Below, piece after piece: positions 20,716 through 38,170 of a stretch of DNA of 64,000 nucleotides; positions within the stretch are counted from its first letter, which is position 1, and each line of letters starts with the position of its first letter. Origin of the DNA: an uncultured Geobacteraceae bacterium. GTDB lineage: Bacteria; Desulfobacterota; Desulfuromonadia; Geobacterales; Pseudopelobacteraceae. Made by a program: the position numbers and the translations under genes. The stretch spans positions 62,001 to 126,000 of the forward strand of contig CAJAFV010000062.1 in the NCBI GenBank assembly GCA_903939115.1. The letters are read 5' to 3'. Under the pieces are notes generated by a model. That model made no database searches and had not been told where the DNA came from. It was given only the letters and a program-made list of their open reading frames with translations.

Positions 20716-20746
20716 AAGAAAAAGCCCCTGATTTCTCAAAGGCTTT
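20716..20746 (-). terminator. terminator of the second tmRNA gene
   Basis: AAAGCC (20721-20726) and GGCTTT (20741-20746) form the stem. Read on the minus strand it is followed by a T-rich run. The stem-loop and the bases between it and the tmRNA 3' end closely resemble those after the main ssrA gene (44872-44932), which shows common ancestry of the two loci. Confidence 0.55.
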
Positions 20747-20778
20747 CGTGTTTGTCCGGATGGTGCCGGAGTGCTATT

Positions 20779-21182
20779 TGGTGGAGGTGCAGGGAGTTGA
20801 ACCCTGGTCCAAACGCTCTTCAATACTAACCTCTACGCTGATAGATTGATTATGGGTTTAAATTCGAGGTAAGCCATCACTCGCGGCACCAAGAACCGAT
20901 TCCTTAATACGACGAATATCGGACCATCCTCGCCGTCCCATTACAATTACTTCTTTTTGACAGCCGAAGGGTTACACAGGGAGTTAAGTCTACCCTCTAG
21001 CTCGCTTGGATTCCGAAGATTCCAAGGCTGGTACTAAGCAGCAATTGCACCTGCAAAGGCGTAATTGTCTGCAGCAGTTGTATTGTTTGCATTTATTGTG
21101 TAGTGGATTATTCTAGAGGCCAACCACCATCCTCCCAGCGCAATCAGTACTTATCTTCGCCTGTCGAAACCTTTACACCCCC
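20779..21182 (-). ncRNA. ssrA: second tmRNA (SsrA) gene
   Basis: Read on the minus strand the RNA begins GGGGGTGTAAAGGTTTCGAC and ends in a T arm (CAGGGTTCAACTCCCTG) and CACCTCCACCA. The 7-bp acceptor stem GGGGGTG/CACCTCC forms completely with one G-U pair. A tag reading frame ends at TAG (21034-21036) and encodes ...ADNYAFAGAIAA, preceded in frame by ANNTTA. Resume codon GCA at 21070-21072 is the likeliest. At 404 nt it is longer than the other copy and nothing looks broken. tmRNA rescues stalled ribosomes with SmpB. Two complete genes in one window is unusual. Confidence 0.85.
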
Positions 21183-21410
21183 ATGAAGTTGAAACCCTTA
21201 AAACGAGAATCATTATTGCTGCTTTCAGTCATACACTATTATCAAATAATTTGCACGAGATTCCGAAAAGGCAGGGACTCTCAGATTGTCCCAGGAAGGT
21301 CTATTTTATTGTTTATATAGGTTAACTACCTGAATTCAATAAAAATCATAACTATGTCGCGCCAGGGATTGGAATCTCAAGGGAGCTTAGGATCTGTCGC
21401 TGACGTTCGG

Positions 21411-22997
21411 TTATCGTAATTGACTATCCAGACACTTTCGCACTGATGCTGCCAAGTCAGATAACCTGAATGGCTTCTGGACGAAATGCACACCCTCATC
21501 AAGCACACCGTGCTGAGTGATGACATCTGCAGGGTATCCAGACATATAAAGGCACCTGAGCTGAGGATTCAGGGACCGAAGTTTGTCAACCAGGTCCTTG
21601 CCGTTCATCTCGGGCATAATAACGTCAGTCATGAGAAGATCGATCTCTCCAGCATGCTCATGTGCCAGGCGCACGGCTTCGCCTGGGGTTCCCGCTGTCA
21701 GCAGGGTATAACCCTGAGTTTCGAGCAGTAGCGAGGTTATCTGCAAAATACCCGGCTCATCTTCCACCAGGAGGATGAGCTCTTGTCCTTTTGGCAATGG
21801 CGCCGGCTGTGCTTCTATCAGAGGTTTTGGGTCCTTCTCCTCGTGCCGTGAGAGATAGATCATAAAGGTTGTGCCTTTCCCATATTCACTGAAGATATTG
21901 ATGAAGCCGTTGTTCTGAGTGACAATACCGTATACGGTGGCCAGCCCGAGGCCGGTCCCTTCTCCAAGACCCTTGGTTGTAAAGAACGGCTCAAAGATGT
22001 GGGCTATTGTTTCCTTGTCCATGCCTGAGCCGTCGTCACTTACGGTCAAGCGGACGTACTCGCCGGGGGTCGCTTCCGGGATTGCGGCACAATAATCGGC
22101 ATCAATGGAGCAGGTGCCGATCTCTATGGTTATCTGGCCGATATCTTCGATTGCATCACGGGCATTGACGCAGAGGTTGGCCAAGATCTGGTCGATCTGG
22201 GAAGGGTCAACTTTGACCAGGCAGGAGTCTGGTGCAGGTTGCCAGACAAACTGGATGTCTTCTCCGATAAGACGCTGCAGCATTTTGAGCATACCGCTAA
22301 TGGTATCATTGAGGTCGATGACTTTGGGGACTACCGTCTGTTTGCGGGCAAAGGCCAAGAGTTGCCGGGTCAGATCGGCTGAGAGTTCGGCGCTGGCTTT
22401 GATCTCTTTCAAATTGTTGCAGACCGGATTAGTCGGGCCAAGGTGCATCAACCCCAGTTCGGCATTGCCGAGGATGACGGTCAGCATGTTGTTGAAGTCA
22501 TGTGCCACACCGCCCGCCAGTCGACCCACTGATTCCATTTTCTGGGCCTGCTGGAGTTGAGATTCGAGTTTTATTTTCTCCTCCTGGGCATGTTTGAGAT
22601 CAGTTATGTCGCGACCAACGCCAAGAACTCCGAGTAGTGAGCCACCGGCTTCATACATCGGAATTTTGGTTGTATACAGCAGGGCGCTATGGCCGTCATC
22701 GGCAAACGTAACCCATTCTTCGTTGCTGCTGGGGCCGTCAGCTGCCATAGCCTTGCGGTCATGATCCCGGAAGAAGTCGGCCAGTTCCTTACCCACAAAG
22801 TCATAATCTGTTTTGCCGACAATGTCGGTTTCTGTGGCACCAAAAAAACGACCAAAGGTTGCATTGCACGCCAGATAGACGCCGTCAGCATCTTTCAGCC
22901 AGATCAGGTCCGGGATCGTATCCAGCAGAGTGCGAAAGCGGCTTTGATTTTCGCGCAGCCTCTCCTCGGCCCGCTTGTGCTCGGTTATATCCCGCAT
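21411..22997 (-). CDS. hybrid sensor histidine kinase, 3' portion of a frameshifted gene (PAS-HisKA-HATPase-REC)
   Basis: A 528-codon frame from MRDITEHKRAEERLREN. It has a PAS domain (about 15-135), HisKA with phospho-His in VAHDFNNMLTVILGN, HATPase_c (NARDAIEDIG, DDGSGMD, GTGLGLATVYG) and a C-terminal receiver (LLMTDVIMPEMNG, FVQKPF). The coding frame continues upstream past the nominal start (FDVTVSPLFDELGSVIAFVHVM). It meets the frame of the 23069-23743 gene at about 23071. Removing one A from AGAGG there restores one REC-PAS-PAS-kinase-REC protein. As written this half lacks a proper start and SD, so the gene is probably inactive unless the extra base is a sequencing error. Confidence 0.75.
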   Translation of the reverse strand: MRDITEHKRAEERLRENQSRFRTLLDTIPDLIWLKDADGVYLACNATFGRFFGATETDIVGKTDYDFVGKELADFFRDHDRKAMAADGPSSNEEWVTFADDGHSALLYTTKIPMYEAGGSLLGVLGVGRDITDLKHAQEEKIKLESQLQQAQKMESVGRLAGGVAHDFNNMLTVILGNAELGLMHLGPTNPVCNNLKEIKASAELSADLTRQLLAFARKQTVVPKVIDLNDTISGMLKMLQRLIGEDIQFVWQPAPDSCLVKVDPSQIDQILANLCVNARDAIEDIGQITIEIGTCSIDADYCAAIPEATPGEYVRLTVSDDGSGMDKETIAHIFEPFFTTKGLGEGTGLGLATVYGIVTQNNGFINIFSEYGKGTTFMIYLSRHEEKDPKPLIEAQPAPLPKGQELILLVEDEPGILQITSLLLETQGYTLLTAGTPGEAVRLAHEHAGEIDLLMTDVIMPEMNGKDLVDKLRSLNPQLRCLYMSGYPADVITQHGVLDEGVHFVQKPFRLSDLAASVRKCLDSQLR

Positions 22998-23068
22998 GAC
23001 ATGAACAAAAGCTATGACACTGCCCAGTTCATCAAAAAGAGGTGATACCGTGACATCAAAAAAACCGT

Positions 23069-23743
23069 TCAGCCTCTTTCCTCGATTTCAAATTTATGCA
23101 CCTGGGCATCCTGTATCATACCGATCAAGGGGCAACTGCACGGAACAGCTTTCAATCCATGCACCGTATCGAAGCATTTCCGCCCCACGATCTCTTCTAC
23201 GGTTATACCGCAACTGTCAGCCATAGCCTTGTTGACCCGGGTAATGGTGTGGTTGATGTCAATGATGGAAATAAGGTCGGGAACTGCATCGAAAGTGCGT
23301 TCCCAGTCTTTTTTTGCCCGAAGTGCTGCTTTGTCAGCCTGCTTGCGTGACTGAATCAGCGACCAGTGTTTTAAAGTTTGCGCCACGGTACGAGGTAGCG
23401 CCTCGAAAGTTTCCGCCGACTTGACGATGTAATCCTGAGCGCCGATCTTCATGGCCTCGACGGCAATCTGTTCATTACCGTGCGATGTCATCATGATAAC
23501 CGGGCACGCTCCGGCTGCCAGGGCGACCAAGTCGCTACCTTCACCATCCGGCAACTGGAAATCAGTCAGGACGAGATCGGGAGCGTGCTGATCTAGGGCC
23601 ACTCTGGCAGCGTGTAATGTACTGACTCGTTTAAGGCAAAACTCTTCAGTAACATTCTCAAAAGAATATTGAATCAACCGGGCATGGCCTTTGTCGTCTT
23701 CAACAACCAGTATCATTGGTGAAGAGGGGTTATCTGTCAGCAT
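23069..23743 (-). CDS. REC-PAS N-terminal portion of the frameshifted hybrid kinase
   Basis: A 224-codon frame: a receiver domain (MILVVEDDKGHARLIQYSF, Asp in VLTDFQLPDGEG, Lys in DYIVKSAE) at about 8-125, then a PAS domain (FDAVPDLISIIDINHTI ... HGLKAVPCSCPL). It ends at TGA within the PAS C-terminal cap, exactly where the next gene's frame takes over one base shifted. It could still produce a soluble REC-PAS protein. It starts 18 bases after the CheY-like regulator gene, with AAAGGAA before the ATG, as the last unit of the signalling operon. Confidence 0.72.
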   Translation of the reverse strand: MLTDNPSSPMILVVEDDKGHARLIQYSFENVTEEFCLKRVSTLHAARVALDQHAPDLVLTDFQLPDGEGSDLVALAAGACPVIMMTSHGNEQIAVEAMKIGAQDYIVKSAETFEALPRTVAQTLKHWSLIQSRKQADKAALRAKKDWERTFDAVPDLISIIDINHTITRVNKAMADSCGITVEEIVGRKCFDTVHGLKAVPCSCPLIGMIQDAQVHKFEIEERG

Positions 23744-23760
23744 GGGAAATTCCTTTCAGG

Positions 23761-24201
23761 TCACCAAGGATGGCTGTTCCAGGCCAACCAGTAAAACCCC
23801 AGATCCTTCAGCAATCTGCTGAAGTCAACAAAATTAACCGGTTTGGTTACGTAGCTGTTGGCATGATATTCGTAGGCCATTGCCATATCTTTCTCGGCAT
23901 CCGAGGTGGTCAGGATGACCACCGGAACAGCTCGCAAGGCCTCACTGGTCTTGACCTCCTTGAGGACATCCAGCCCATCCACTTTGGGCAGACGCAGATC
24001 CAGCAGCATCAGGTGCGGCATGGGGAATAGTTTGCGATCGGCATATTTGCCCCGCCCGTACAGATAGTCGAGCGCCGCCTGACCATCTTTGACATGGTTA
24101 ATGGTATTAGCCACTTGAAAATCCTCCATGTTGCGTATTATTAACTCGGCGTGGTCGCTGTTGTCCTCTACCAGCAGTATTGTTAACGGTTCTCCGTTCA
24201 T
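23761..24201 (-). CDS. single-domain response regulator (CheY/Rcp1-like)
   Basis: A 146-residue stand-alone receiver (MNGEPLTILLVEDNSDHAEL). It has the acidic pair, phosphoacceptor Asp in MLLDLRLPKVDG, Thr in VILTTSD and Lys in YVTKPVNF. The longer loop GRGKYADRKLFPMPHL resembles cyanobacterial Rcp1-type regulators that pair with phytochrome-like or PAS kinases. The start is chosen at 24201 because AAAGGAGG lies 8 bases upstream. The ATG overlaps the stop of the upstream kinase gene by four bases, making that kinase its likely partner. Confidence 0.88.
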   Translation of the reverse strand: MNGEPLTILLVEDNSDHAELIIRNMEDFQVANTINHVKDGQAALDYLYGRGKYADRKLFPMPHLMLLDLRLPKVDGLDVLKEVKTSEALRAVPVVILTTSDAEKDMAMAYEYHANSYVTKPVNFVDFSRLLKDLGFYWLAWNSHPW

Positions 24202-25406
24202 TGTGGTGCCTCCTTTATTGTGAAACAAAACCGGCTCCCCATCCCTACACCTTCCGACTCCACCCAGACCCGACCGCCATGCACCTCAATGATCCGCTTG
24301 ACCAGGGCCAGCCCTACGCCGGTCCCTTGGCTGTTGGCATCAAGTTTATTGAACAGGCCGAAGATGAGCTGATGGTATTTTTTATCGATACCGATGCCGT
24401 TGTCCTGAACAAAGAAGATATTTTCACCCGCCTCCTGCCGTACGCCGATTTCTATGCGCGGTTCTGTCTGATCGCCGATGTAATTGATGGCGTTCTCCAC
24501 CAGGTTCTGCAGCACTTCTGCCATGCGCCGACGGTCGCACAATACTTTCGGTAAACCGGTCTGCACCTCAACAGTCAGATTACTGTTTTTCAAAGGGCCG
24601 GCCAACTGAGCCAGCACATCGTCTACCAGCAGATTCATATCCTCCGGTTCCGGCGTATTGATAGCCCGGCCAATGGTTGAGAGTTCCAGCAGATCGCGCA
24701 GCAGATCGACCATCTTGTCGGCAGCGTCGCTGACCCGCTTCAGATCTTCCGCCATCCGTTGATAATTACCACTCAAAAGATCTTTTTCCAGAGAGCCGGT
24801 GAATCCCTTAATGGTAATAATCGGGCTTTTCAGATCATGGGAGACGGTGTAGGCAAAACGCTCCAGCTCGCTGTTCATACGGATCAGCTCGGACTCTCTC
24901 GTGCGCAGTCCCTCTTCGGACTGCTCCAGTTGTTTGATCTTCTCCTGAAGTTCGAAGGTGCGCTCCGCCACTTTTTCCTCAAGCTGAAGATTTGCCAGAT
25001 CAAGTTTATCGTGGGCCTGCTTGATGCGAAACATCACCTTCAGGCGTGCGGCAAGTTCCACATTGTCAATCGGCTTGGCAATAAAGTCATCGGCGCCGGC
25101 GTCGAGTGCCTCGACTCGCAGATTCACTTCAGACTTGTGCGCGGTCATAAGCACCACCGGAATATGGCTAGTTTCAGGATGTGCCTTTAACTGGCGGCAC
25201 AATTGGATACCATCGGTTCCCGGCATCTGGATATCACTCAAAATACCATCCGGATGATGTTCTATCGCCAATCGAAGCGCCGTCTCAGCGTTGGGTGCGG
25301 TATACACCGTGCAGGCAGGTAGATATTCCCCCATCACCTGCTCGATAACATAAAGGTTGTCAGGCCGGTCATCAACAACCAGCAGAATCGGAACTTCATG
25401 ATTCAT
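24198..25406 (-). CDS. response-regulator/histidine kinase (REC-coiled coil-HisKA-HATPase)
   Basis: A 402-residue soluble kinase. The N-terminal receiver (about 5-120) has DGILSDIQMPGTDG and DDFIAKPIDN. A coiled coil (125-165) leads to HisKA with VSHDLKSPIITIKGF and HATPase_c (NAINYIGDQ, DNGIGID, GTGVGLALVKRI). The kinase half is strikingly similar in DNA and protein to that of the gene at 32665-34773, indicating recent duplication. The start at 25406 has AAAGGAGAG. It lies 38 bases after the CheD-HDOD gene and overlaps the CheY-like gene. Confidence 0.88.
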   Translation of the reverse strand: MNHEVPILLVVDDRPDNLYVIEQVMGEYLPACTVYTAPNAETALRLAIEHHPDGILSDIQMPGTDGIQLCRQLKAHPETSHIPVVLMTAHKSEVNLRVEALDAGADDFIAKPIDNVELAARLKVMFRIKQAHDKLDLANLQLEEKVAERTFELQEKIKQLEQSEEGLRTRESELIRMNSELERFAYTVSHDLKSPIITIKGFTGSLEKDLLSGNYQRMAEDLKRVSDAADKMVDLLRDLLELSTIGRAINTPEPEDMNLLVDDVLAQLAGPLKNSNLTVEVQTGLPKVLCDRRRMAEVLQNLVENAINYIGDQTEPRIEIGVRQEAGENIFFVQDNGIGIDKKYHQLIFGLFNKLDANSQGTGVGLALVKRIIEVHGGRVWVESEGVGMGSRFCFTIKEAPQ

Positions 25407-25444
25407 GGTTCTCTCCTTTTGGTTTCGGGTAGCCCGGATCAGGC

Positions 25445-26794
25445 TCACCGCAACAAACCTGCGCCCCGAAGCTTCAGAATAATATCCGGAAAAAGCCTCT
25501 CATTATTGTTAACAACCTTTATCTGTTCGAGGGCCGATAGCGAGAAGTCGGCGCTCCGCTGCACTCTGGTACCGGATATACCGAGCATGGCGCTAATATT
25601 ACAGGCTGCCTCGACAACGGCCGCAAGGGTGACCCTGTCTGACGATATGAGGGGCGACCGCACAGTTGACACCGCCTCCGCTAGTACCTGTGGTAACTGC
25701 CATATTGTCAGCAATGCCCCGGCTAGCAGGCGATGGTACCGTGCACTTTTTGAATCCGGCTCTACGGAAAACGAGCATAAGTCATCGCACCTTTCATCAG
25801 GAGATGATTCGCCGTCAGCAGCAACCAGGCAGGCAGCAATGGAACCGAGCGGGTGCAACAGGGCAGCGGAAAACGCCTCTTGCTCCAGCTCCGGGCAAAT
25901 CTCCAGAGCCAGATACTGCGCGGCGACAGCGCTGGCCAGAGTGTGACGGGAAAGAGTCTTCTGATCGATGCCGAATTCCGCCAACCGGGTGGTGCTGTTC
26001 TTTTCCGCAGCCACAACCACACAGACACGACGTAGTTTGTCAGGACCGAGACAGGAAAGCGCTGCAGCAAAAGAGCCGACCGACTGCGGGTTCCCGTAGT
26101 AGTCAGAATTGCACTTTTGCAACAGGTGCAAGGCAAGCACAAAATCCTGACAGACAAGAGCGGAGATCTCCTGCCAGTCTAGTTCACGTTGGTGCAGTGC
26201 CTCAAAAAGTCTCCCGGCAACATGCGGATCAGGGCGTATCTGTTCCAGGGAAGCGGCAACGGTGTTTAGCAATGGCAGCGGTAGTGGCTTGCCGCTGGTG
26301 CTGGTGCCGTTGCGAGAACCCTGTATCTGCCGGGAATTCGGCCTGATCCTTATAGCACCGCTGGCAACCGTAATCTCGACGGCACGCCCCTCAATCCCTC
26401 CTGTTTCCTGCCGTATCAGCGGGATACCCGCCTCAGTCAGCAGAGCCAGGCATTTTTCACTATTGTCAACTCCGACGTCGGGATTGCCGCCGGCCACCAA
26501 ACACGCGCCGCCGGCAACTATTGCCGTTATCCGGTCGCGGTCGGCGCCATGTCGTTCCATCTCCCTGATAAGGAGCGGCACCCCGGTGTCGGCATAAAAG
26601 GCGTTTTTGTCATCTATGCGCTCATTTTCCCGATGTCCCGGCAGTACAATGTGCAGCAATCCGGCAATTTTCTCCCTGGAGTCATACAACGCTACCGCTA
26701 CGCACGATCCGACGCAGGTAAACAGGATGTCGGCAGGATCAAACGACACACGAAATTCACCAATTGGAATATGTACCGTTTTAGTGCGGTTCAT
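25445..26794 (-). CDS. CheD-HDOD fusion protein
   Basis: A 449-residue protein. Residues 1-155 are CheD, the chemoreceptor glutamine deamidase, with catalytic Cys31 (VGSCVAVAL) and His48 (LLHIVLPG) plus IVAGGACLVAGGNPDVG. From about 170 an HDOD domain follows (PLLNTVAASLEQI ... DWQEISALVCQDFVLALHLLQ ... LGPDKLRRVCVVVAA), a degenerate HD-hydrolase fold used as a signalling scaffold. CheD is normally a separate 160-200 residue protein. No chemoreceptor or CheC is nearby, so the deamidation target is unknown. It lies 6 bases after the large hybrid kinase. Confidence 0.85.
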   Translation of the reverse strand: MNRTKTVHIPIGEFRVSFDPADILFTCVGSCVAVALYDSREKIAGLLHIVLPGHRENERIDDKNAFYADTGVPLLIREMERHGADRDRITAIVAGGACLVAGGNPDVGVDNSEKCLALLTEAGIPLIRQETGGIEGRAVEITVASGAIRIRPNSRQIQGSRNGTSTSGKPLPLPLLNTVAASLEQIRPDPHVAGRLFEALHQRELDWQEISALVCQDFVLALHLLQKCNSDYYGNPQSVGSFAAALSCLGPDKLRRVCVVVAAEKNSTTRLAEFGIDQKTLSRHTLASAVAAQYLALEICPELEQEAFSAALLHPLGSIAACLVAADGESSPDERCDDLCSFSVEPDSKSARYHRLLAGALLTIWQLPQVLAEAVSTVRSPLISSDRVTLAAVVEAACNISAMLGISGTRVQRSADFSLSALEQIKVVNNNERLFPDIILKLRGAGLLR

Positions 26795-26800
26795 AGCATT

Positions 26801-29800
26801 TCACGTCATCCATTTTCGCACTTTTTCCAACAACTCATCCGGATTTATCGGTTTGGGAACATAATCGTCGGCCCCCGCAGCCAGGATAACCTCCTTCTCC
26901 CCCTTCATGGCTCTGGCGCTGACCGCAATGATCGGAATATGTCTGGTAGTCGGATCGCTCTTGATAATTTTTATCGCCTGGATACCATCCATAACCGGCA
27001 GTTGAATATCCATCAGGATTACATCCGGCAGCAGTTCCCTGACCATCCGGACCCCCTGTTCGCCATCTTCGGCAACGGACAGTTCGTAGCTGTTCCCCTC
27101 AAGGATGGCGGAAACGGTCAAGCGGTTATCGGCATTATCTTCTACCAGCAGGATGCTCCCCGCTCCGGAGCGGGCCGTTTTTACACCTGCCTCTGTCATC
27201 GTATGTTTCCTCTCCTCGCCCTTATGCGGAGAGAGCATTCTCTTGACGCTGGCAACGAGCTGTTCGCGGTCGGTGCTTCCTTTCTGGATAAGCTGCACTA
27301 TATTGTTGTGCATCAATCGACTCCGTTCGGCAGCCGAAATCTCCTTGGCGGTCAGGATCAGCACCGGCAGGGCGGCCGTCTCCGGCCAGGAGCGGATCTG
27401 CTCCAGCGCCTGAAAACCATCGACCTTCGGCATCATTAGATCCAGAACGATGGCGTCGGGCATGTCCTGTCTGACGTGTTCCAGTCCCTCTGCTCCATCT
27501 TTGGCAACTACAACCTCAAAGCCGTTATCCTGCAGGGCGGCGCAGATCTGCATGCTGGCGATTTCGTTATCTTCCACTACAAGAATCCGTGGAGGGCCTG
27601 ATCTTCCGGAGGAGGGGATTGCGGGCGGCGGAGGTTCGGATACGATATCGGCATACAGCGATTCACCGTGAAAGGTGAGAGGAAGAGCCAGAGTGAAGGT
27701 GCTTCCGGCGCCCGGAGTTGATGCTACCGTAATTTCCCCGCCAAGCAGAGCGGTGAGTTTTTTGGAGATTGCCAGACCAAGGCCCGTTCCTTCATGTTCA
27801 CGGGTGAAAGAGCCGTCCACCTGCCTGAATTCATCAAAAATACTTCCCTGATCCCCCGCCGAGATACCGATGCCGCTATCGCTGACAATGAAGAAAACCT
27901 TACGGTCTGCCTCCTTGACATGCAGGGTCACCTTCCCTTTTTCGGTGAATTTGATCGCGTTGGAGAAAAAATTAAGCAGTATCTGATATACCTTGTCTTC
28001 ATCGGAAAACAGCACCGATTCCCCCTCAATATGAGTATCAAGCTGCAGCCCTTTTTTATCGGCCAGCGGGCGCGCAGTTTCAAGGAGGCGTTCGACAATC
28101 TGTCTGGTTTCAAATTTGGTCGGGAAAATATCCATCCGGCCAGACTCAATCTTGGTCAGGTCAAGGATGTCATTGATCAGGTTGAGCAGTTGCCGCCCGT
28201 TCCGGTCAATGACCCTGAGGTATTCGGTCGCCTTCTCCGGGTCTTTTTCAATCCCCCGGCTGATCATCAGTTGCGAAAGGCTCATGATGCTGTTGAGCGG
28301 AGTGCGCAGTTCATGACTCATATTGGAGAGGAACTCGGACTTTAATTTGTCGGCCTCCTCGACCTGGAACCGTTTCTTTTCCAGTTCGACAGTCTGGGCC
28401 TGCAGTTCATCCCGCTGGGCCTGCAGCTCGCTGGCCTGGGCCTGCAACTCCTTGTTCAGCGCGGAAAGCTCATTATTTGAAACATTGATCTGATCTGTTT
28501 TAGTCTGCAGCTCTTCATTTGCCGCCTGCGAATTACGGTAAAGATCCTGTATCTGTCTGTTCTGCAGAGAGATGTTGAGCTGGCTGGCGATAATCTGAAC
28601 CGCCTCGTCGACAAATTGTTTCTTCATCGGTGCCAGCGCTTCAAATGTGGCAATTTCGATGACACCCAGGAGTTCATGCTCAAAGAGAATCGGTACGGCA
28701 TAGATGTTTTGGGGCGGTTCGCTGACGGTGCCGCTGTTGGCGCACGCCTCGTCCCTGGAGATGTTTTTCAGCATGATCGGTTTTTTTTCAACGGCAACCT
28801 GCCCGATCACCCCTTCTCCACGAAGGAAACGGTTGGCAAGAAATTTTCGTTCGACAAAAGCATATGAGGCGGTGAGATTGCAGGCGGCATCGGCACGGTC
28901 ATAGAGATAGAAGACGCCGGCGCAGGCGTCGAGAGTCCGGGAAACGAAGCTGACGCTCGTCTCGGTCAACTCGTCAAAAGAGATGTTGCCGCTTAATATG
29001 CGGCCAAGTTCGTTCAGTTTGTCCCGGAGCCAGAGTTGATCCCTGATGACTGTAACCAGTGCGTTATAGTGCAAGGCGAGATCGGCAATTTCATTTTTCC
29101 CCTCTACTTCCACCATGCCTATTACGCCGCTGCTGGTACCAGCCGCCATTTTGTCTTTAAGGGTACCCAGCGACCTGGTGATACTGTTAATGACAATACA
29201 CGCCGCACCAAAACAGAAAATCGTCACCAGACATATTGCGAGTATCACCATCTTCATAGTCTGCTGCCGGGTTTCCTCGGCATTTGCCATAAACCCGTCA
29301 GCCTTTTTGTTGGCATAGCTGCTAAGCTCGGTTGTTTGTCTCTCAAGCCGGTCAACGAAGTCGTCCGTATTTTTTCGATGGATTTCGAGGGCAGCCGCTT
29401 TGTCTCCCTTCAGAACGAACTCTTCAACTTTTATCCTGCGCGGCTTCCAGCTCGAAAATATATCGATGCTCTCCTGCGCCAGTTTCTTCCCCTCTTCACC
29501 GAGAATCAGCTCTTTAACCAGGGCAAGATCCTTGTAGACATCTTTCTCATCATCCAGAATCGCCTGAATGGAGCGGTTTGCCTCCAGTTGCGATTGAGCC
29601 AGGAGCACATCTTTGATGTTTCTATGCATACTGATAATGCCGGATTGTACCCGGAGCGCCGCATTGGAGACCTGAAGGGGGTGATTATGCAGGGTTTTGG
29701 TCAGTTCGGCCAGAGTCCCGAGCCTCTGCAGGGCAAATACCCCAAAGAGCGCAAACAGGAGAATGGAGAGGGAAAACAGCGCGACAATCCTGCTTCTGAC

Positions 29801-29824
29801 GGTTATTTTATGTAAAAATCCCAT
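26801..29824 (-). CDS. membrane hybrid histidine kinase (sensor-HAMP-GAF-HisKA-HATPase-REC-REC)
   Basis: A 1007-residue kinase. Two membrane helices (about 13-33 and 190-213) flank a four-helix-bundle-type periplasmic sensor. HAMP follows, then GAF (about 275-430), a long coiled coil with repeated LQAQ units (445-500), HisKA (MSHELRTPLNSIMSLSQLM) and HATPase_c (GTGLGLAISKKL). Two receivers come last (VLDLMMPKVDG near 800, VILMDIQLPVMDG near 935). The GAF suggests cytosolic ligand or redox sensing in addition to the periplasmic input. The start has GGGAGG 8 bases upstream. It lies between CheR and CheD-HDOD, so chemotaxis-type adaptation of this kinase is conceivable. Confidence 0.88.
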   Translation of the reverse strand: MGFLHKITVRSRIVALFSLSILLFALFGVFALQRLGTLAELTKTLHNHPLQVSNAALRVQSGIISMHRNIKDVLLAQSQLEANRSIQAILDDEKDVYKDLALVKELILGEEGKKLAQESIDIFSSWKPRRIKVEEFVLKGDKAAALEIHRKNTDDFVDRLERQTTELSSYANKKADGFMANAEETRQQTMKMVILAICLVTIFCFGAACIVINSITRSLGTLKDKMAAGTSSGVIGMVEVEGKNEIADLALHYNALVTVIRDQLWLRDKLNELGRILSGNISFDELTETSVSFVSRTLDACAGVFYLYDRADAACNLTASYAFVERKFLANRFLRGEGVIGQVAVEKKPIMLKNISRDEACANSGTVSEPPQNIYAVPILFEHELLGVIEIATFEALAPMKKQFVDEAVQIIASQLNISLQNRQIQDLYRNSQAANEELQTKTDQINVSNNELSALNKELQAQASELQAQRDELQAQTVELEKKRFQVEEADKLKSEFLSNMSHELRTPLNSIMSLSQLMISRGIEKDPEKATEYLRVIDRNGRQLLNLINDILDLTKIESGRMDIFPTKFETRQIVERLLETARPLADKKGLQLDTHIEGESVLFSDEDKVYQILLNFFSNAIKFTEKGKVTLHVKEADRKVFFIVSDSGIGISAGDQGSIFDEFRQVDGSFTREHEGTGLGLAISKKLTALLGGEITVASTPGAGSTFTLALPLTFHGESLYADIVSEPPPPAIPSSGRSGPPRILVVEDNEIASMQICAALQDNGFEVVVAKDGAEGLEHVRQDMPDAIVLDLMMPKVDGFQALEQIRSWPETAALPVLILTAKEISAAERSRLMHNNIVQLIQKGSTDREQLVASVKRMLSPHKGEERKHTMTEAGVKTARSGAGSILLVEDNADNRLTVSAILEGNSYELSVAEDGEQGVRMVRELLPDVILMDIQLPVMDGIQAIKIIKSDPTTRHIPIIAVSARAMKGEKEVILAAGADDYVPKPINPDELLEKVRKWMT

Positions 29825-29849
29825 GGCGACCTCCCCTGCTTGTTTAGAA

Positions 29850-30680
29850 TTATTTCTTCCTGAAGATCCGGTTCCGATCGTCCACTTCCGTAAACTCTGA
29901 TTTACTGATATCCGCCAGCCATTCAGACTCCCCGAGGATCAGATAACCACCCTTGTTGAGCGATCTGATGATCTTGTTCTGGACAGATTTTCTGCACGCC
30001 TCGTTAAAATAGATCATGACATTTCTGCAGAACACTAGGTCGAATGCGCCGAAAATACTCGCGGATGGCGCGCTCCTTTCAGTCGAAGCCAGATCGTCGA
30101 AGGAAAAATCTACCATGCGCCTGATACCCGGCTTGATTCTGAACGCCTCGCCAACCGGAGTAAAGTACTCGTCGACAATGCCGACCTTTGTTTCAACCAG
30201 TTTTGCCCGTGAGAACAGACCTTTTTCCGCCTCCGCAAGGATTTTCCGATCAATATCGGTAGCGAAGATCAAGATCCGCCACTCTGACAGTTCATCCTTC
30301 AATAGCTGCCGCAGCAGGATGGCAACGCTGTATGCTTCTTCTCCCGTCGAGCAACCGGCGCTCCAGATACGGATTTCCCGTGAGCCGTCAGTGCGCTTTG
30401 CGTCCAGAATTGCCGGGAGTGTCCGCTCCTTGATAATCTCGAACACCAGGGGATTCCGAAAAAACAGGGTGACTTGAATCCCGATTTCCGATAAAAGGGT
30501 ATCCGCTTCGATCGGCTCTGTGCGAAGTTTTTCCCGATACGCTGCCGCACTCTGTATCTGTAAGGATACCATGCGTTTTTCAATTTTTTGGATCAGAAAA
30601 TCGGTTGAATAGGCAGAAAGGTCAATCCCCTTTTGCTCTTTTATCTCTTGTAGAAGATCATCACTATTCAGTATCAGCAT
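29850..30680 (-). CDS. CheR-type protein-glutamate O-methyltransferase
   Basis: A 276-residue SAM-dependent methyltransferase. The N-terminal helical domain (about 1-75) contains DFLIQKIEKRM. The Rossmann domain has RIWSAGCSTGEEAYSVAILL (SAM motif I), LIFATDID, and FDLVFCRNVMIYFN. CheR methylates glutamates of chemoreceptors. Neither CheB nor any receptor is encoded nearby. The start is set at 30680 because similarity begins at MLILNSDDLLQEI. An in-frame extension upstream is antisense to the kinase tail. A modest AGGGGA precedes the ATG. Confidence 0.87.
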   Translation of the reverse strand: MLILNSDDLLQEIKEQKGIDLSAYSTDFLIQKIEKRMVSLQIQSAAAYREKLRTEPIEADTLLSEIGIQVTLFFRNPLVFEIIKERTLPAILDAKRTDGSREIRIWSAGCSTGEEAYSVAILLRQLLKDELSEWRILIFATDIDRKILAEAEKGLFSRAKLVETKVGIVDEYFTPVGEAFRIKPGIRRMVDFSFDDLASTERSAPSASIFGAFDLVFCRNVMIYFNEACRKSVQNKIIRSLNKGGYLILGESEWLADISKSEFTEVDDRNRIFRKK

Positions 30681-30690
30681 ATGGATTCCC

Positions 30691-32586
30691 CTACGACCCC
30701 ATCGTAAAGCAGAACCTGCTTCCTTTTCCTTCCCCCTCCGACTCCACCCACACCTTGCCACCATGCGCCTCGACAATCCGCTTGACCAGCGCGAGACCGA
30801 TACCTGTCCCTTCACTTTTGGCATCCAACTTTTTGAAAAGACCGAAGATTTTTTCGTGGTGGCTCGGGTCAATACCTTTGCCGTTGTCGCTGACAAAGAA
30901 GACGCACTCCTTGCCATCCTGCCGTGTGCCGATCTCGATGCGAGGCGCAGCCTGATCACCCATATATTTGATGGCGTTTTCAATCAGATTCTGCATGACC
31001 TCTGCGATGCGTTTCTGATCGCCAAGAACAGATGGGAGATCAGGGTGCAGCACAATCTCAACGTGACTACCCGCGATTGGTCCTGCCAGTTGCTGCAGGG
31101 TATGCTCAACCAAGCGGTTCATGTCCACCGGTGAAGGTTCGTCCATCATTCTACCAGCACGGGAAAGCTCCAGTAGATCATTGAGCAGTTTAGTCATCTT
31201 GCCCGCCGCATTCTCAATCCTCTTCATGTCATCCTGAGCCCGCTCGTACTTGCCTGTTTCCAAATCATTTTTGATCATCCCGGCATATGCCTGTATCGTG
31301 ATTAACGGGCTCTTCAGGTCATGCGAGACTGTGTAGGCGAAACGATCCAGTTCGATGTTTTTGTCCAGCAGCGCTTGTTCTGTCAGCTTGCGTGCAGTGA
31401 TGTCACTCAGTGTGCCGACCATCCGTTCTGCTTTTCCATCTGAGTCCCGTTTGACTGTTTTGCCGCGTGTGGATACCCACAGCCATTCGCCGGATTTCAT
31501 TCTCATACGGAGAGCAATCTCAAAGCCTCTGCCTGTTTCGATACTCTGCCGGATGTCATGTTCGACCCGCTCGATGTCTTCCGGATGGATCAGACTCTGC
31601 CATGAGGCATAATTAGCCGGAAACTCCATGTCAGTATAACCGAGCAAGGCATAGTAAACCGGGCTGAAAAATGAGTTTCCGCTCGGTACATGCCAGTCCC
31701 AGATTCCATCGTTTACTGCGGCGAGGGTAATGGAGTATCGCTCCTCGGTTTGATGCAACGCCACTTCTGTTTGTTTGCGCGAGCTGATATCACGAACTAT
31801 CTTTGATGCCCCTGCAATAGTACCGTCATTAGCTTTGATCGGTGAAATGGTTACCGAGACATCGACCACTCTTCCACTTTTGGCACGTCTGATCGTCTCA
31901 TAGTGATCAATATGTTCCCCAGAGGAAAGCCTCTTCAGTATGTTTTTTTCTTCTGGCAAAAGCTCATTGGGAATAATTATCGAAATAGGCTTCCCAATTG
32001 CTTCATCCGAACTGTAACCAAAGATCTTTTCTGCCCCCTTGTTCCAGGTAAGAATTCTACCATCCAGGGCTTTGGTTATGATGCCGTCGTTTGAATACTC
32101 AACGATTGCCGCCAGCCGTTCCTGATGCTCATGCAACGCTTCTTGGCTTTTTTGAATAGCTTGTTCTTTTTCGAATAGGGCGACTTTTTTTTGATTGCTC
32201 CGATTGAGATTGGTTATAATTCCTATAAGGAGGCAGGTCCCACTAAACAACGCTACACCAAGAATATCGACGGGAGATTCAATCTTAATTTTACCTATCG
32301 GTGCCAACTCCCATACGCTGACTGTTATGATTGTCAGAATTACTGACAGAATACCTGGCCAAAAGCCGACAAGCAAAAACACTAAAATGACTGCGGGGTA
32401 GAAGGTAATGTAGACTGGCAATCCAGGGCCAAACGGGATCGAAAAGACATATCGGACCAAATAGGCACAGGCAACTGCGGCTGCGGATAGGCCAAAATTT
32501 GCTGCCATCGCTACTATTGGACGATTTTTGAAAAAGGATGTCCACCAGTGTGTTTTTATTGTTTTTGATGGCTGTTTCACATTCAT
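30691..32586 (-). CDS. membrane PAS histidine kinase with DUF4118-type N-terminus
   Basis: A 631-residue kinase. The N-terminus holds four closely spaced membrane helices of the KdpD-like DUF4118 domain (about 25-120, with VYITFYPAVILVFLLVGFWPGILS). Two PAS domains follow (about 150-260 and 275-395), then HisKA with VSHDLKSPLITIQAYAG and HATPase_c (DNGKGIDPSHH, GTGIGLALVKRI). No receiver is attached, so the output could go to the stand-alone regulator or to receivers of its neighbours. It has GAGG before the ATG and ends 10 bases before the cheR start. Confidence 0.88.
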   Translation of the reverse strand: MNVKQPSKTIKTHWWTSFFKNRPIVAMAANFGLSAAAVACAYLVRYVFSIPFGPGLPVYITFYPAVILVFLLVGFWPGILSVILTIITVSVWELAPIGKIKIESPVDILGVALFSGTCLLIGIITNLNRSNQKKVALFEKEQAIQKSQEALHEHQERLAAIVEYSNDGIITKALDGRILTWNKGAEKIFGYSSDEAIGKPISIIIPNELLPEEKNILKRLSSGEHIDHYETIRRAKSGRVVDVSVTISPIKANDGTIAGASKIVRDISSRKQTEVALHQTEERYSITLAAVNDGIWDWHVPSGNSFFSPVYYALLGYTDMEFPANYASWQSLIHPEDIERVEHDIRQSIETGRGFEIALRMRMKSGEWLWVSTRGKTVKRDSDGKAERMVGTLSDITARKLTEQALLDKNIELDRFAYTVSHDLKSPLITIQAYAGMIKNDLETGKYERAQDDMKRIENAAGKMTKLLNDLLELSRAGRMMDEPSPVDMNRLVEHTLQQLAGPIAGSHVEIVLHPDLPSVLGDQKRIAEVMQNLIENAIKYMGDQAAPRIEIGTRQDGKECVFFVSDNGKGIDPSHHEKIFGLFKKLDAKSEGTGIGLALVKRIVEAHGGKVWVESEGEGKGSRFCFTMGS

Positions 32587-32664
32587 GGCGACCTCATTGA
32601 TTCACTCAGCTTTTTGGTAAAGTAGTCATGTGCTACCCCAAAAACATTATTCGGGGACACCGTA

Positions 32665-34773
32665 TCAAACAGGCTGAGGCGCGGTCAGTGAACCGACCGT
32701 AAAACAAAACCGACTCCCAAATCCTTCACCTTCCGACTCCACCCAAACCTTGCCGCCATGCACCTCGATAATCCGCTTGACCAGTGCCAGGCCAACACCG
32801 GTGCCGTTGCTTTCGGCATCCAGTTTATTAAACAGCCCGAAAATGATCCGGTGAAATTTTTCATCAATGCCTATGCCGTTATCCTGCACAAAAAAGATGT
32901 TTTCGCCAGCTTCTTCTCGCATACCAAACTGTATCTGCGGCTCTGTCTGATCACCCATGTAATGTATGGCGTTCTCAAGCAGATTTTGAAGCACCTCGGC
33001 CATGCGCAGTCTGTCGCAGAATAGTATTGGCAGACCAGGCTGCACGGCAACGGTCACTCTGTGATTTTTTAAAGGCCCGGCCAGTTGAGCGAGCACATCG
33101 GCTACCAGCAGATTCATATCCACCGATTCCGGAGTATTGATAATCCGGCCGATGGTTGAGAGTTCCAGCAGGTCGCGCAGCAGATCATTCATCTTGTCGG
33201 CGGCATCGCTGACCCGCTTCAGATCGCCCGCCATCCGCTCGTAATTACCTTTCAAAAGATCCTTTTCCAGAGAACCGGTAAACCCCTTGATTGTAATTAT
33301 TGGGCTCTTAAGATCGTGGGAGACGGTGTAGGTGAAACGCTCCAGTTCGGCGTTCTTTTGCTGGAGCTCTCTTTCATACACCTTGCGTTCAGCGATAAAG
33401 CGGGCCTGTTGAATATTCTGGTACGCCTTCAGGGATAATTCATTGGCGAGCAGAAAGAGGACGAGAGCCACCTTGTCAAACCGCTCTTTCGACATGGTCG
33501 GAACTTCCGCCAGCGCAGTCCTGAAAAGTTCCCGGTCAACATCTATCTCATCGGCATATTCCAGCATCTTCTCTTCGTCCTGTTCTTCGTTCCTGACCTG
33601 CCCTATGAGCCAGTTGGCAATATGTCTGCCGCCGACGGTAATGCTTGCCCCGCCATCCCAGAGTCCGCCGCTCATGCAGGGCTGGACAGTCGGACCTGCT
33701 GGATTGCATTTCCCCAGGACGCTGTCAGACTTGATGCAGTTCTCCAGACCTTTTTCCGACTTGCGGATAATGTCATTACATAACCTGCAGAAGTTACTTG
33801 GCTTGGTGAGAGGTTCGCCGTCAGGGGTGGTGATTATGGAAGCCACGCCGGTCGCCTCTGCAAAGGCATCCTGAATATGCTGCAGTTCATTGATGCTGAA
33901 CAGCTCTTCAAATGAGATTGAGCCGCTGTCTAACGGTTGAGTCAGTGATACAAGCCGCTTTTCGATTGTCTCCTTATCCCGTTTGCGCTCGGTGATGTCA
34001 GAGAAGGAAACAACAACCTGCAGCAACGTGCCATCTGCACCGGTGACCGGATAGGCGTTGCATTGCACCCAGACCGGTTCAGCCAGATCAGGGCGGCGAA
34101 TCCCCAAAACCTGGTTAGCCATTGGTTCGCCTGACGACAGCACCCGATTGACCGGGTATTCTGCAAGCGGTAATGCCGTACCGTTTTCCTGAAGAAAGCA
34201 CCAATCCGGATCCATGGCAACTCTTCCCTGCATCTGGTCCTTAGTGAGGCCGAGCAGGGTTGAAGCCATGGAGTTGGATAAAATGACTGAGGAATCCGGG
34301 GCATAGACAATCATGCCGGAGGAAAGATTGTTAACCAGAGCACGATACTTCTCCTCGCTGTCCCGCAACGTTGCTTCTGTCCGTTTGCGCTCGGATATAT
34401 CATGCCAGACCACATAGATCACTCCGTCCGGAAGAGCTGCTAGGGAAACCTCCACAGGGAATTCTTTGCCATCGTCCAGGTGATGGTGAATCCATTCAAA
34501 ACGATTTGAACCGGTTTCAAGGGCCTTATCAACTACCATTTGCACTTTGACTTGAGATAACAGGCCATCAGGTTGATACTCAGGGGAGAGTTCCCATGGC
34601 GATATATTGATTACATCAGCAATTGATTTTGCATGGAGACTGTCAGCCGCAGCCTGATTACAATCGATGAACTTGCCGTCATGGAACAAAAGACAGGCGT
34701 CCCTCGAATATTCAAACATATTTCGAAATTTACGTTCGGAGCTGGCAAGCGGCTGTTTAAGTGTGTACTTCAT
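32665..34773 (-). CDS. PAS-PAS-PocR histidine kinase
   Basis: A 702-residue soluble kinase, first gene of the signalling run. PAS domains lie at about 10-125 and 135-265. A PocR ligand-binding domain (about 285-455) has the cysteine series FCRLCNDIIR ... CIKSD ... KCNPAGPTVQPCMSGGLWDGG. PocR domains bind small metabolites or metals, as in the propanediol regulator PocR. HisKA (VSHDLKSPIITIKGF) and HATPase_c (GTGVGLALVKRI) complete it. The kinase half is almost a copy of the one at 24198-25406. SD is weak (GAGG). Confidence 0.88.
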   Translation of the reverse strand: MKYTLKQPLASSERKFRNMFEYSRDACLLFHDGKFIDCNQAAADSLHAKSIADVINISPWELSPEYQPDGLLSQVKVQMVVDKALETGSNRFEWIHHHLDDGKEFPVEVSLAALPDGVIYVVWHDISERKRTEATLRDSEEKYRALVNNLSSGMIVYAPDSSVILSNSMASTLLGLTKDQMQGRVAMDPDWCFLQENGTALPLAEYPVNRVLSSGEPMANQVLGIRRPDLAEPVWVQCNAYPVTGADGTLLQVVVSFSDITERKRDKETIEKRLVSLTQPLDSGSISFEELFSINELQHIQDAFAEATGVASIITTPDGEPLTKPSNFCRLCNDIIRKSEKGLENCIKSDSVLGKCNPAGPTVQPCMSGGLWDGGASITVGGRHIANWLIGQVRNEEQDEEKMLEYADEIDVDRELFRTALAEVPTMSKERFDKVALVLFLLANELSLKAYQNIQQARFIAERKVYERELQQKNAELERFTYTVSHDLKSPIITIKGFTGSLEKDLLKGNYERMAGDLKRVSDAADKMNDLLRDLLELSTIGRIINTPESVDMNLLVADVLAQLAGPLKNHRVTVAVQPGLPILFCDRLRMAEVLQNLLENAIHYMGDQTEPQIQFGMREEAGENIFFVQDNGIGIDEKFHRIIFGLFNKLDAESNGTGVGLALVKRIIEVHGGKVWVESEGEGFGSRFCFTVGSLTAPQPV

Positions 34774-35475
34774 GGCAAAACCTCAATTAAGGAATAAGAG
34801 TTTTTTTCGTTCCCACCGGCACTACCCTTTACCCTTTTTGCGTACCAACTGTAAAACAAAAAACAATTCTGGAACAGGGTTTTAGGTGTGTAATTATAGA
34901 ATTTCTCCTTGGGAAAGTAACTAATATTTTTGCTGTAATAAATGTATTTCATTATTCTGAAGCGTGTTTCACAGTTGGGAATGTCTAAAACCTCCAGATA
35001 TCGCTGAAAGAGCTTATGCTTGAAGATGCTGCAACTGTCCCCTCTATATCAAACACCGCGTTACTCCTTGCAAAATAGTATTCACGCATCACAACCCAAC
35101 ATCAAAAATCCATCTTAGTGGGAAAAGGTGTCAAGTGTCCGGTGAAACCCGTATTACCATTTGTTGAAATTGCAAAGATCATTGCATCCGCGACAGCAAA
35201 CTGGTCGTTGCTATATGCGCACCGGAGTTATTTTATTGCTAAGGTGTGGGAGGTTCACTTATCTGATGACTTTGGCTGTGTAACGGAAGATGCCAGATGA
35301 TGAGTTATGAAAATATGGCCAAAGAAGAAATACAAGCGTATCTACATAAACTTGAGAGGGATGGGGTGGCTGAGCTTCAACTCATTGACATCTGAGTGAT
35401 CTGATATGTCTTGTTCCAACTGATTCCAGTAAGCTTATCAACTCTGCATCTGTGTATTTGATGATATGCTCTCGC
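34774..35475. other. intergenic region without a confident gene
   Basis: About 700 AT-rich bases between the first kinase of the signalling run and the MocR regulator. Two 60-codon open frames exist, 34770-34952 minus and 35118-35300 plus. A 33-codon frame starts at 35297, overlapping the end of the second. None has a recognisable domain or good SD. The region should contain the promoter of the kinase operon, but no convincing -35/-10 pair stands out. Confidence 0.4.
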
Positions 35476-36867
35476 TCAGCAGATTTGGGAGAGTAGTGCG
35501 ACTCCTTGCTCAATCTCGCTGCTATTCATCCCACCAAAGCCGAGCAGCAATGTTGTCGCTTCGGGTTGGCCAACTACGTGGAATGCAGAAAACGGGAACA
35601 GACGAATGCCTTTTTGCCGTGCTCGATCTATGATCTCCGCTTCGCTGGGTAACGTGTCAGGCAGCATAAGAACAATATGAAGTCCGGCGCCTTGACCAAT
35701 AACAACAGCCCGTTTGCCAAAATGAGTTTCAATCGACCGTAACAGGATGTCGTGTTTCTTTTTATAGATAATGCGCATCCGCCGTATATGCCGTTCCCAG
35801 TGCCCCTGCTCCATGAATGTTGCCATAGTTCTCTGTTCGAGCAACGATACTGAGGGAAAATAATCCTGGTAAAGGTGACGGTAAGATGCCAGCAATGAGT
35901 AGGGTAGCACCATGTAACTCAAACGGAGTGCCGGGGAGAGTATTTTTGAGAATGTTCCCGAATAGATACTATTTCCGGTCGGACGCAGCCCTTGTAAAGA
36001 GGGTATGGGCTTCCCATGGTAGCGGAGTTCGCTGTCATAATCGTCTTCAATAATATACTTACAACCCGACTCCGCCCATTCAATCAACGCAAGCCGGTTA
36101 GCGACCGGCATAACGTAACCCAAAGGCATCTGGTGTGAAGGGGTGACGTAGGCGATGGTGCTATTACTGGCTTTGAGCAGATTCAGGTCAAGACCGCCCG
36201 ACCCGACTGGGACCGGGAAGATGGTATATGAATGGTTTTTGAAAACGGAACGTGGCAGGTGGTAACCAGGGTTCTCGACCGCCACTACAGAATGGTTTCC
36301 CTTTAATATATGCGAGACTATGTCGAGGCTCTGCTGAAGTCCGGCGCAGATAACAATCTGATCAGGGGCACAGATCACACCTCGTGATCGTTCCAGATAA
36401 CTTTGAATAGCGCAGCGCAATCCCCAGTCTCCTTGAGGATCGCCATACTGGACAAGCTGTTCGCTGTTTCGGCGCAGGCCTTCAATAAAACTTTTTCGCC
36501 AGAGTTCCGTGGGAAAACTTTCAGGATCAAGACGGGCAGGGTGGAAATCATAGGCAAAGTTGGATGGGGGACCTGGAAGGTAGTCGTCTTTGCCTGGCTT
36601 GCCCGTTAGAGATTGCGGTGCAGTCTCCTGGTCAAGTGCCGACACGAAATACCCGCTGCGTGGCTTGCTGTATATGTATCCTTCTGCGTAAAGTTCTTGA
36701 TAGGCCCCGTCAACCGTGTTGCGACTGGCTGAAAGTTCGATGGCTATATCCCTGACCGATGGGAGCCTGGAATCGGCAGGCAGCTTGCCTGACAGGATAT
36801 GCTCCCGGATCTGATTATAGAGTTGTCTGTATAGCGGAACATGATTACTGCTATTCAGAATGAACAT
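35476..36867 (-). CDS. MocR/PdxR-family transcriptional regulator (GntR HTH + aminotransferase domain)
   Basis: A 463-residue chimera. The N-terminal GntR winged helix (about 1-75) shows VPLYRQLYNQIREHILSG, LPSVRDIAIELSASRNTVDG and YQELYAEGYIYSKPRSGYFV. A fold-type I aminotransferase domain (about 90-460) follows, with the PLP lysine in YSGTFSKILSPALRLSYM and IIEDDYDSELRYHG. MocR proteins sense PLP or amines and usually control a divergent gene for PLP synthesis, transport or amino acid use. Here the divergent side holds only an integrase fragment, so the target seems lost. Two direct repeats about 100 bases upstream may be its operator. Confidence 0.9.
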   Translation of the reverse strand: MFILNSSNHVPLYRQLYNQIREHILSGKLPADSRLPSVRDIAIELSASRNTVDGAYQELYAEGYIYSKPRSGYFVSALDQETAPQSLTGKPGKDDYLPGPPSNFAYDFHPARLDPESFPTELWRKSFIEGLRRNSEQLVQYGDPQGDWGLRCAIQSYLERSRGVICAPDQIVICAGLQQSLDIVSHILKGNHSVVAVENPGYHLPRSVFKNHSYTIFPVPVGSGGLDLNLLKASNSTIAYVTPSHQMPLGYVMPVANRLALIEWAESGCKYIIEDDYDSELRYHGKPIPSLQGLRPTGNSIYSGTFSKILSPALRLSYMVLPYSLLASYRHLYQDYFPSVSLLEQRTMATFMEQGHWERHIRRMRIIYKKKHDILLRSIETHFGKRAVVIGQGAGLHIVLMLPDTLPSEAEIIDRARQKGIRLFPFSAFHVVGQPEATTLLLGFGGMNSSEIEQGVALLSQIC

Positions 36868-37009: not shown

Positions 37010-37273
37010 TTGCAATCTGGGTTTATGCTGGAATTATGCATTCGTCAGGACCTCAACAAACTCGTTGATCTCATGGGACATGCTTCGAAGAGGATGATCT
37101 ACGATGTTTATGGGAAATATGTAAAAGGATTGGAAGAAGATCGACTTCTGGTCCTGGAATATTTTGGAAGGGATTATTTAGACGGCAGAAACGACATGAC
37201 CCTTGACTCACAGACTTCTGGTGAAAGTATTAGTGAAAGTCAAGGGCCATGTCATTATAACAGCCTGTTTTAA
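37010..37273 (+). pseudogene. C-terminal fragment of a tyrosine recombinase
   Basis: The reading frame contains LVDLMGHASKRMIYDVYGKYVKGLEEDRLLVLEYFG. This is the end of a phage-type tyrosine integrase with the GH motif and the catalytic tyrosine in YDVYGKY. The arginine, HxxR and N-terminal domains are missing, and the only start is a TTG without SD. It abuts the outer att copy of the present island. It is probably left from an older element that used the same or an adjacent site. Confidence 0.6.
37193..37253. repeat. long inverted repeat next to the outer att site
   Basis: Bases 37193-37208 (GACATG-A-CCCTTGACT) pair with 37238-37253 (AGTCAAGGG-C-CATGTC). This gives 15 base pairs interrupted by one mismatch, with a 29-base loop. 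It overlaps the 3' end of the integrase fragment. It may be a recombination-related or transcript-end structure. Confidence 0.5.
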
Positions 37274-37283
37274 CAGGTTTTTT
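37264..37283 (+). terminator. intrinsic terminator after the integrase fragment
   Basis: CCTGT (37264-37268) and ACAGG (37273-37277) form a short stem with a 4-base loop, followed by TTTTTT. It lies directly before the outer att copy and would stop plus-strand transcription from the integrase remnant. Confidence 0.5.
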
Positions 37284-37285
37284 GC

Positions 37286-37320
37286 TGGTGGAGACGGTGG
37301 GAGTCGAAGCGTCTCCACCA
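37286..37320. repeat. outer attachment site of the ssrA-integrated island
   Basis: Bases 37286-37308 are identical to the 3'-terminal 23 bases of the main ssrA gene (44933-44955), in the same orientation. This is the direct repeat expected from site-specific insertion into a tmRNA 3' end. Unlike the gene, this copy continues into GTCTCCACCA (37311-37320), which is the reverse complement of its own first ten bases. The site is therefore also a palindrome. The two copies lie 7.65 kb apart and bracket the integrase. Confidence 0.75.
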
Positions 37321-38162: not shown

Positions 38163-38170
38163 TGGAATAT

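Follow-up and report, generated by a model that had tools for sequence, protein, structure and literature searches.

The window analysed here, a 64,000-nucleotide stretch of one contig of an uncultured Geobacteraceae bacterium, carries two tmRNA (ssrA) genes of different types on the minus strand, ssrA1 and ssrA2. The features at ssrA2 are as follows.

20779..21182, minus strand: ssrA2, complete L-type tmRNA gene of 404 nt (ARAGORN, Rfam; alignment and fold of 15 L sequences)
21034..21090, minus strand: likely tag frame of ssrA2 including the stop codon (gene nt 93-149), ANNTTAADNYAFAGAIAA (frame open in L copies; same coding part given by ARAGORN in L127 and L141)
21183..21324, minus strand: upstream region accompanying L-type ssrA, presumed promoter region (similarity in relatives)
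20720..20747, minus strand: terminator-like hairpin 3' of ssrA2 (resembles the sequence after ssrA1 and in relatives)

ARAGORN and the Rfam covariance model RF00023 both identify 20779-21182 as a full-length tmRNA with identical bounds (139 bits over model positions 1-374, exceeding the gathering score of 47), which confirms the complete second tmRNA recognized in the sequence-only reading. Its identity to ssrA1 is 64.7% over 340 aligned bases. ssrA1 and ssrA2 are the only two tmRNAs above the cut-off in the whole genome (4.76 Mb, 99 contigs), and the earlier observation of two ssrA genes with one visible smpB holds genome-wide. The terminator and adjacent flank noted as common to the two loci are also borne out, over 95 bp at 78.9% identity (44873-44967 vs 20719-20813). 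Five of the last 23 nt differ between ssrA1 and ssrA2, and comparison of these 23 nt reveals no exact 3'-end repeat joining the two genes.

The other tmRNA gene adjoins the smpB region and an integrative element, with the following features.

44933..45286, minus strand: ssrA1, S-type tmRNA gene, the host type (ARAGORN, Rfam 153.6 bits; tmRNA tree)
45155..45193, minus strand: ssrA1 tag frame including the first stop codon, ADNYNTPIALAA (ARAGORN)
45383..46345, minus strand: multihaem cytochrome gene, between ssrA1 and smpB (gene annotation)
46338..46796, minus strand: smpB, the only copy in the genome (genome-wide search)
43469..44764, minus strand: tyrosine integrase of 431 aa with Arm-DNA-bind_3 and Phage_integrase domains, directly downstream of ssrA1 (domain matches)
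37286..37308, minus strand: att repeat of 23 bp, identical to the ssrA1 3' end (repeat comparison)
37286..44955, minus strand: element 1, about 7.7 kb with a 23-bp repeat at each end (repeats and gene content)

Element 1 is an ordinary ssrA-specific integrative element, with an integrase beside ssrA and a repeat of the ssrA 3' end at its far side. The integrase, homologues of which adjoin ssrA in four relatives (G007, G031, G023 and G021), is followed by an AAA_25/primase-like gene, an IS66 transposase and a Gp49-like + HTH pair, which we take to be a HigB/HigA-type pair. The last 11 nt of ssrA1 recur in inverted orientation at 37309-37320, directly after the 23-bp att copy. Genomic islands that integrate at the ssrA 3' end are known from the Islander database (PMC4383910), Pseudomonas (PMC12595487) and Dehalococcoides (PMC3146451). 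As far as the available text of these sources goes, element 1 shares with such islands the 3'-end integration and the short end repeat at the far boundary, and tandem elements occur both among them and in the window. Element 1 and the Islander and Pseudomonas islands use a tyrosine integrase, whereas the available description of the Dehalococcoides islands names a serine recombinase (PMC3146451).

Between element 1 and ssrA2 lie two further features.

21411..36867, no strand assigned: accessory cargo comprising hybrid histidine kinases, CheR, CheD-HDOD, response regulators and GntR/aminotransferase (gene and domain annotation)
37034..37285, plus strand: probable C-terminal remnant of a tyrosine integrase (motif by eye; no Pfam or PHROG match)

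About 24 kb of apparently inserted DNA, element 1 included, extends from the ssrA1 3' end, and ssrA2 marks its far end. The far boundary of the L-bearing DNA (20779-37285) is a whole L gene with its own 3' end, and ssrA2 occupies the usual place of a displaced ssrA1 3' fragment. Known ssrA islands, in the available portions of their descriptions, restore the target with a fragment, whereas the window has a whole divergent tmRNA gene at the far boundary. No intact integrase that certainly belongs to the L-bearing DNA is found in the window, only the 37034-37285 remnant without a family match. DNA resembling this remnant borders directly on S-type ssrA in G036 (87.6%); in G013 (87.2%) about 0.36 kb separate it from M-type ssrA.

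Past ssrA2, the terminator-like hairpin is followed by a cysteine/sulfate cluster including cysN and cysD. Among 39 genomes of the genus, the CheD-HDOD cargo protein is found only in this one (1/39 at an E-value limit of 1e-60), while cysN, on the opposite side of ssrA2, is found in 29/39 (at a different limit, 1e-150), which places ssrA2 at the border of accessory DNA and widely kept genes. cysN could not serve to identify the native right flank: in relatives it and ssrA are on separate contigs or, in G005, at a distance of 478 kb. No gene is common to more than two genomes among 22 downstream stretches, except for an integrase in three, and the pre-insertion site can thus not be shown for this genome.

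Three deeply different ssrA types occur in the genus, S (the type of ssrA1), L (the type of ssrA2) and M. Each is found adjoining smpB, and the three alternate at the smpB locus. The sample of 39 genomes includes this one, and many of the relatives are metagenome bins; S and L were counted by DNA search of all 39, and M from gene lengths (37 genomes) together with tags. L is full-length in 15 of the 39 genomes, S in 12, and M (395 nt) in three (G021, G032 and G013). In four more, the contig ends within the S gene, as repeats or mixed strains would lead one to expect. For 13 of the 15 carriers in the genus, L is the sole full tmRNA found, with G059 searched with S and L DNA only. Double sets are present in three of the 39 genomes: this one (G000, S and L), G032 (M and L) and G013 (S cut at a contig end, plus M). 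A second tmRNA in G023 (tag AENYDYALAA) was not counted as a double, being a probable contamination: it groups with Smithellaceae in the tmRNA tree and lies on a 5.4-kb contig (L148, G023:C401), with an adjoining smpB that is only 56% identical. Eight of the 39 genomes yielded no full tmRNA (G002, G008, G014, G018, G022, G025, G029 and G034), and re-scoring of these eight and G009 with the Rfam model gave 0/9. Six of the eight are rated 98-100% complete; contig breaks may explain some of the genomes without a full tmRNA.

A class-wide search of 277 genomes, with two candidates scored in each, finds full-length L in 16, namely the 15 of the genus and G254, from another genus of the same family. 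In four genomes of family f2 and in G202, the L match is confined to the 5' part. The L gene of G254 is 96% identical to ssrA2, with SmpB at 79.6%; as a comparison pair, ssrA1 and its S-type counterpart in Pelotalea chapellei share 84.9% identity, with SmpB at 88%. A terminator-like sequence similar to that of the window follows S, L and M genes in many relatives, and a simple duplication inferred from the common terminator was dropped for this reason. Conserved terminator-like sequences at ssrA attachment sites are reportedly a subject of Williams's 2003 article "Traffic at the tmRNA gene".

L retains its own upstream region in six genomes. Window positions 21183-21342 match the sequence upstream of L in G028, G254, G030, G027 and G020 with scores of 72-86 (best of 300 shuffles 20), more weakly that in G032 (27 vs best shuffle 17), and that in G010 with 17 (best shuffle 15); in the eight other L carriers tested the match is not above shuffles, the closest (G026) being equalled by 20/300. 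An M upstream region is conserved between G021 and G013 (score 72). The genomes can be read as different stages of a replacement. Both genes are present in this window (S + L), and in G032 M, an integrase of 565 aa and L follow one another within 2.7 kb, with L about 140 bp after the integrase gene. In G013, one contig opens with the last 20 nt of ssrA followed by a related integrase (61%), and M lies on another contig, with a right flank that has genes in common with the right flank of L in G019 and G035. In two relatives the host gene is broken and S remnants stand before L. These are G028, where a 23-nt S-type 5' end, preceded by a spacer like S-gene spacers (score 22, 0/300 shuffles), is followed by the L upstream region and L, and G254, where about 137 nt of decayed S with an altered conserved 5' end precede the L upstream region and L. 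Finally, L stands alone with its own upstream region in G030, G027 and G020, and alone without it, about 28-42 nt after smpB, in G016, G015, G006, G026 and G059.

Taken together, these arrangements suggest that ssrA2 is probably an intact foreign L-type tmRNA gene that arrived on an integrative element targeting the ssrA 3' end. The sequence-only reading had left a choice between old paralogues and a copy brought by an element; the remnants, the scattered types described below, the upstream region and the cargo favour the element. The opposite polarity, in which L is native and S the invader beside smpB, was dropped, since S groups with Geobacterales tmRNAs and a truncated S lies between smpB and L in G028 and G254.

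The L-type tag frame is open from a GCA codon for 18-19 residues and ends in a stop in 14/14 L copies examined, with codon-sized insertions in some. In ssrA2 this GCA is gene nt 93, and the tag is probably ANNTTAADNYAFAGAIAA, of 18 residues; the frame in the L copies indicates that the tag bounds first proposed from the window are probably too short. ARAGORN places the ssrA2 tag start at nt 108; its start coincides with the GCA in L127 and L141 and is shorter in the remaining L copies. The tag ends in AIAA, AVAA or ALAA among L copies, and AVAA or AIAA tags are present in other Geobacterales/Desulfuromonadia, leaving the idea of AIAA as a special degradation signal unsupported. Both ssrA1 and ssrA2 fit the standard tmRNA model RF00023 end to end, with part of the region after the tag, where a pseudoknot is expected, left unaligned in ssrA2. 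The L type differs from the standard tmRNA in its length of 404 nt and its probable 18-residue tag, 10 residues being the most frequent tag length according to the available part of PMC11915505.

In the tRNA-like end of ssrA2, the acceptor and T stems are perfectly paired and CCA is present. The whole acceptor stem, with its third G-U pair (the alanine identity determinant), is invariant in 15/15 L copies. The T stem pairs in 15/15; three of its five pairs vary, always with a compensating change on the opposite strand (in 6, 9 and 5 sequences), so that no pair is lost. The six broken cells in the predicted L fold (nested pairs only) all lie outside these two stems. The tRNA-like domain is predicted to fold, and the covarying T stem, with L as the sole full tmRNA in most carriers, supports the earlier impression of an apparently functional second tmRNA with another tag. 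It is unlikely that ssrA2 is a dying relic, unexpressed and intact only by chance after a recent arrival. Consensus promoter matches near ssrA2 are weak (2 vs 1.0 +/- 1.0 in shuffles) and the genome has another strong tmRNA in ssrA1, as a relic would lead one to expect; but the gene is complete with its tag frame intact, and it has the upstream region that also stands before the sole full tmRNA found in G028, G030, G027, G020 and G254.

Sequence diversity in L is highest in the last 34 nt (0.113), compared with 0.066 in the middle and 0.027 in the first 60 nt, while in S the end is not the most diverse part (0.055, 0.083 and 0.038, respectively). The diversity figures and the tag frame are based on 14 L copies, without L214 (G059), and the alignment and fold on 15, including L214; G254 is in neither set. 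T-stem variants of L are out of step with the rest of the gene (15 copies), and T-stem versions are common to otherwise different L genes (G028, G030/G020/G027 and G059). The diverse 3' end and the discordant T-stem versions fit an exchange of the att end by recombination.

In a midpoint-rooted tree of 68 tmRNA sequences, S falls among ordinary Geobacterales and Desulfuromonadia tmRNAs. A split with support of 100 sets these apart from L, M and the family-f2 type, which group together on long branches. It had been proposed that such a tree might match one of the two RNAs to mobile-element tmRNAs: L does stand apart from the host-type S, but a DNA search finds no ssrA2-like sequence in phages or plasmids, and a search of viral contigs for tag patterns of the L or M kind was empty. 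The types are scattered over an rpoB tree that covers 34 of the 39 genus genomes (five had no match; deep nodes are weak), with sister pairs G016 (L)/G009 (S, cut) and G013 (S + M)/G028 (S remnant + L), both with support of 100, and G026 (L)/G023 (S), with support of 93. This genome falls in a clade (support 98) with G031 (S), G024 (S) and G008 (3' fragment only).

An ancient duplication, in which the ancestor of this family and f2 had both types, with differential loss and a later separation of the copies by islands, would account for the single deep group of L, M and the f2 type, for the f2 genomes carrying their type beside smpB, and for the terminator common to both copies. However, the scatter of types over the rpoB tree would require one or the other to have been lost many times independently, and the duplication sits poorly with an L gene 96% identical between two genera whose SmpB is 79.6% identical, as well as with the S remnants upstream of L in G028 and G254 and the L upstream region of its own in six genomes. 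We consider it rather improbable.

Homologous replacement alone, in which free L DNA recombined at the conserved 5' end and at the 3' end/terminator with the islands as bystanders, is quite improbable as a full account. It draws on the short distance between smpB and L in G016, G015, G006, G026 and G059, as for S (S genes start 40-85 nt after smpB in seven S genomes), on the shuffling of T-stem variants relative to the gene body, and on S-like spacers. Comparison of the spacer alone, in G016, G015, G006, G026 and G035, finds the smpB-L spacer to resemble S-gene spacers in G015 (score 19, 0/300 shuffles) and G006 (14, 1/300), but not in the other three of the five tested. (A broader statement, that L lies within the host's S-type upstream sequence in G016, G015, G006, G026 and G059, was cut back, as the 160 bases compared were mostly smpB coding sequence; for the M spacer in G032, the resemblance to S-gene spacers is reached by 5/300 shuffles.) Replacement of this kind leaves unexplained L at the far end of the inserted DNA in the window, the M-integrase-L succession of G032, and the L upstream region in six genomes; it may well be a second step of the proposed L take-over. 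An assembly or binning artefact joining two strains is highly improbable, for although this is a draft of 99 contigs and the S gene is interrupted by a contig end in four relatives, a single 128-kb contig holds both genes at a distance of 24 kb, with coherent boundaries, and comparable doubles exist in G032 and G013.

Arrival on an integrative element, the preferred reading, would proceed as follows. The attP of the element would be the 3' end of its own L gene, so that integration into an S-type ssrA would give the order host ssrA, integrase and cargo, L-type ssrA, with the host gene staying beside smpB and L at the far end; since five of the last 23 nt differ between ssrA1 and ssrA2, the crossover point is not pinned down. 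Both RNAs would then be transcribed and charged with alanine and would have one SmpB in common, giving two tags per cell. Later deletion or recombination would remove S and leave L as the sole tmRNA. The L-carrying element would thus first co-exist with the host gene and then replace it, and the window would represent the co-existence stage, with element 1 (7.7 kb) integrated afterwards at ssrA1.

A more tentative suggestion is that L (and M) represent a kind of mobile gene, an integrase + tmRNA unit inserting at ssrA. The tmRNA of such a unit, with its longer tag and different T-arm att, might conceivably stand in for that of the host, making the unit indispensable and closing the site to rivals once the host gene decays. 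The integrase, about 140 bp and L of G032 could possibly be its smallest form. In G021, smpB and the M-type ssrA are separated by a Fic/DOC-domain gene (L135, about 3700-4600), perhaps cargo of an M-bearing element.

The usual view of tmRNA is of a housekeeping RNA, present in one copy and evolving together with its host. In this genus, three tmRNAs alternate at one locus, with intermediates in which both are present, the host copy is truncated, or the host copy is gone. The system makes it testable why ssrA is favoured as an insertion site, whether two tags in one cell depend on one SmpB and the same proteases, and whether a mobile element is able to take over a key cellular RNA; it also cautions against tmRNA as a vertical marker.

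Among known cases of more than one tmRNA, four mycobacterial species carry extra tmRNAs that resemble ssrA2 in being second tmRNAs with a different tag and are thought to be horizontally acquired from phage or another genus (PMC9569102); unlike our reading of the window, the available text of that paper mentions neither integration at ssrA nor displacement of the native gene. Phage-borne ssrA genes have been described, as have second or third alleles in bacteria (Hudson et al. 2014, PMC4131195), with no mechanism of exchange given in the part available. Two ssrA copies are mentioned for Skermanella in the accessible portion of PMC11767975, and the presence of two tmRNAs in Hydrogenivirga is put down to a probable mixed assembly in that of PMC4227106. 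Thus, ssrA islands and extra, horizontally acquired tmRNAs are already known, while no report of an element-borne ssrA displacing the host gene was found in the literature searched, a scope that mostly excludes subscription papers.

Other ssrA oddities occur in the wider group. The single-contig Geobacterales genome G202 has a group I intron in the 3' part of ssrA (L247:10240-10793, RF00028 69.7 bits). The intron junction falls in the T loop, and tmRNAs of an intron form are already known, as the available part of PMC11915505 indicates. G055, which belongs to a different family of the order, has a full ssrA and, about 19 kb downstream, a closely similar second gene that lacks a normal 5' end.

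L150:9744-10071 and L151:9464-9816: ssrA pair of G055

The tmRNAs of family f2 (L130, L131 and L133) adjoin smpB, and their tags are called at 22 residues, ANNKIAGFFAADNYTFAGAVAA and a variant.
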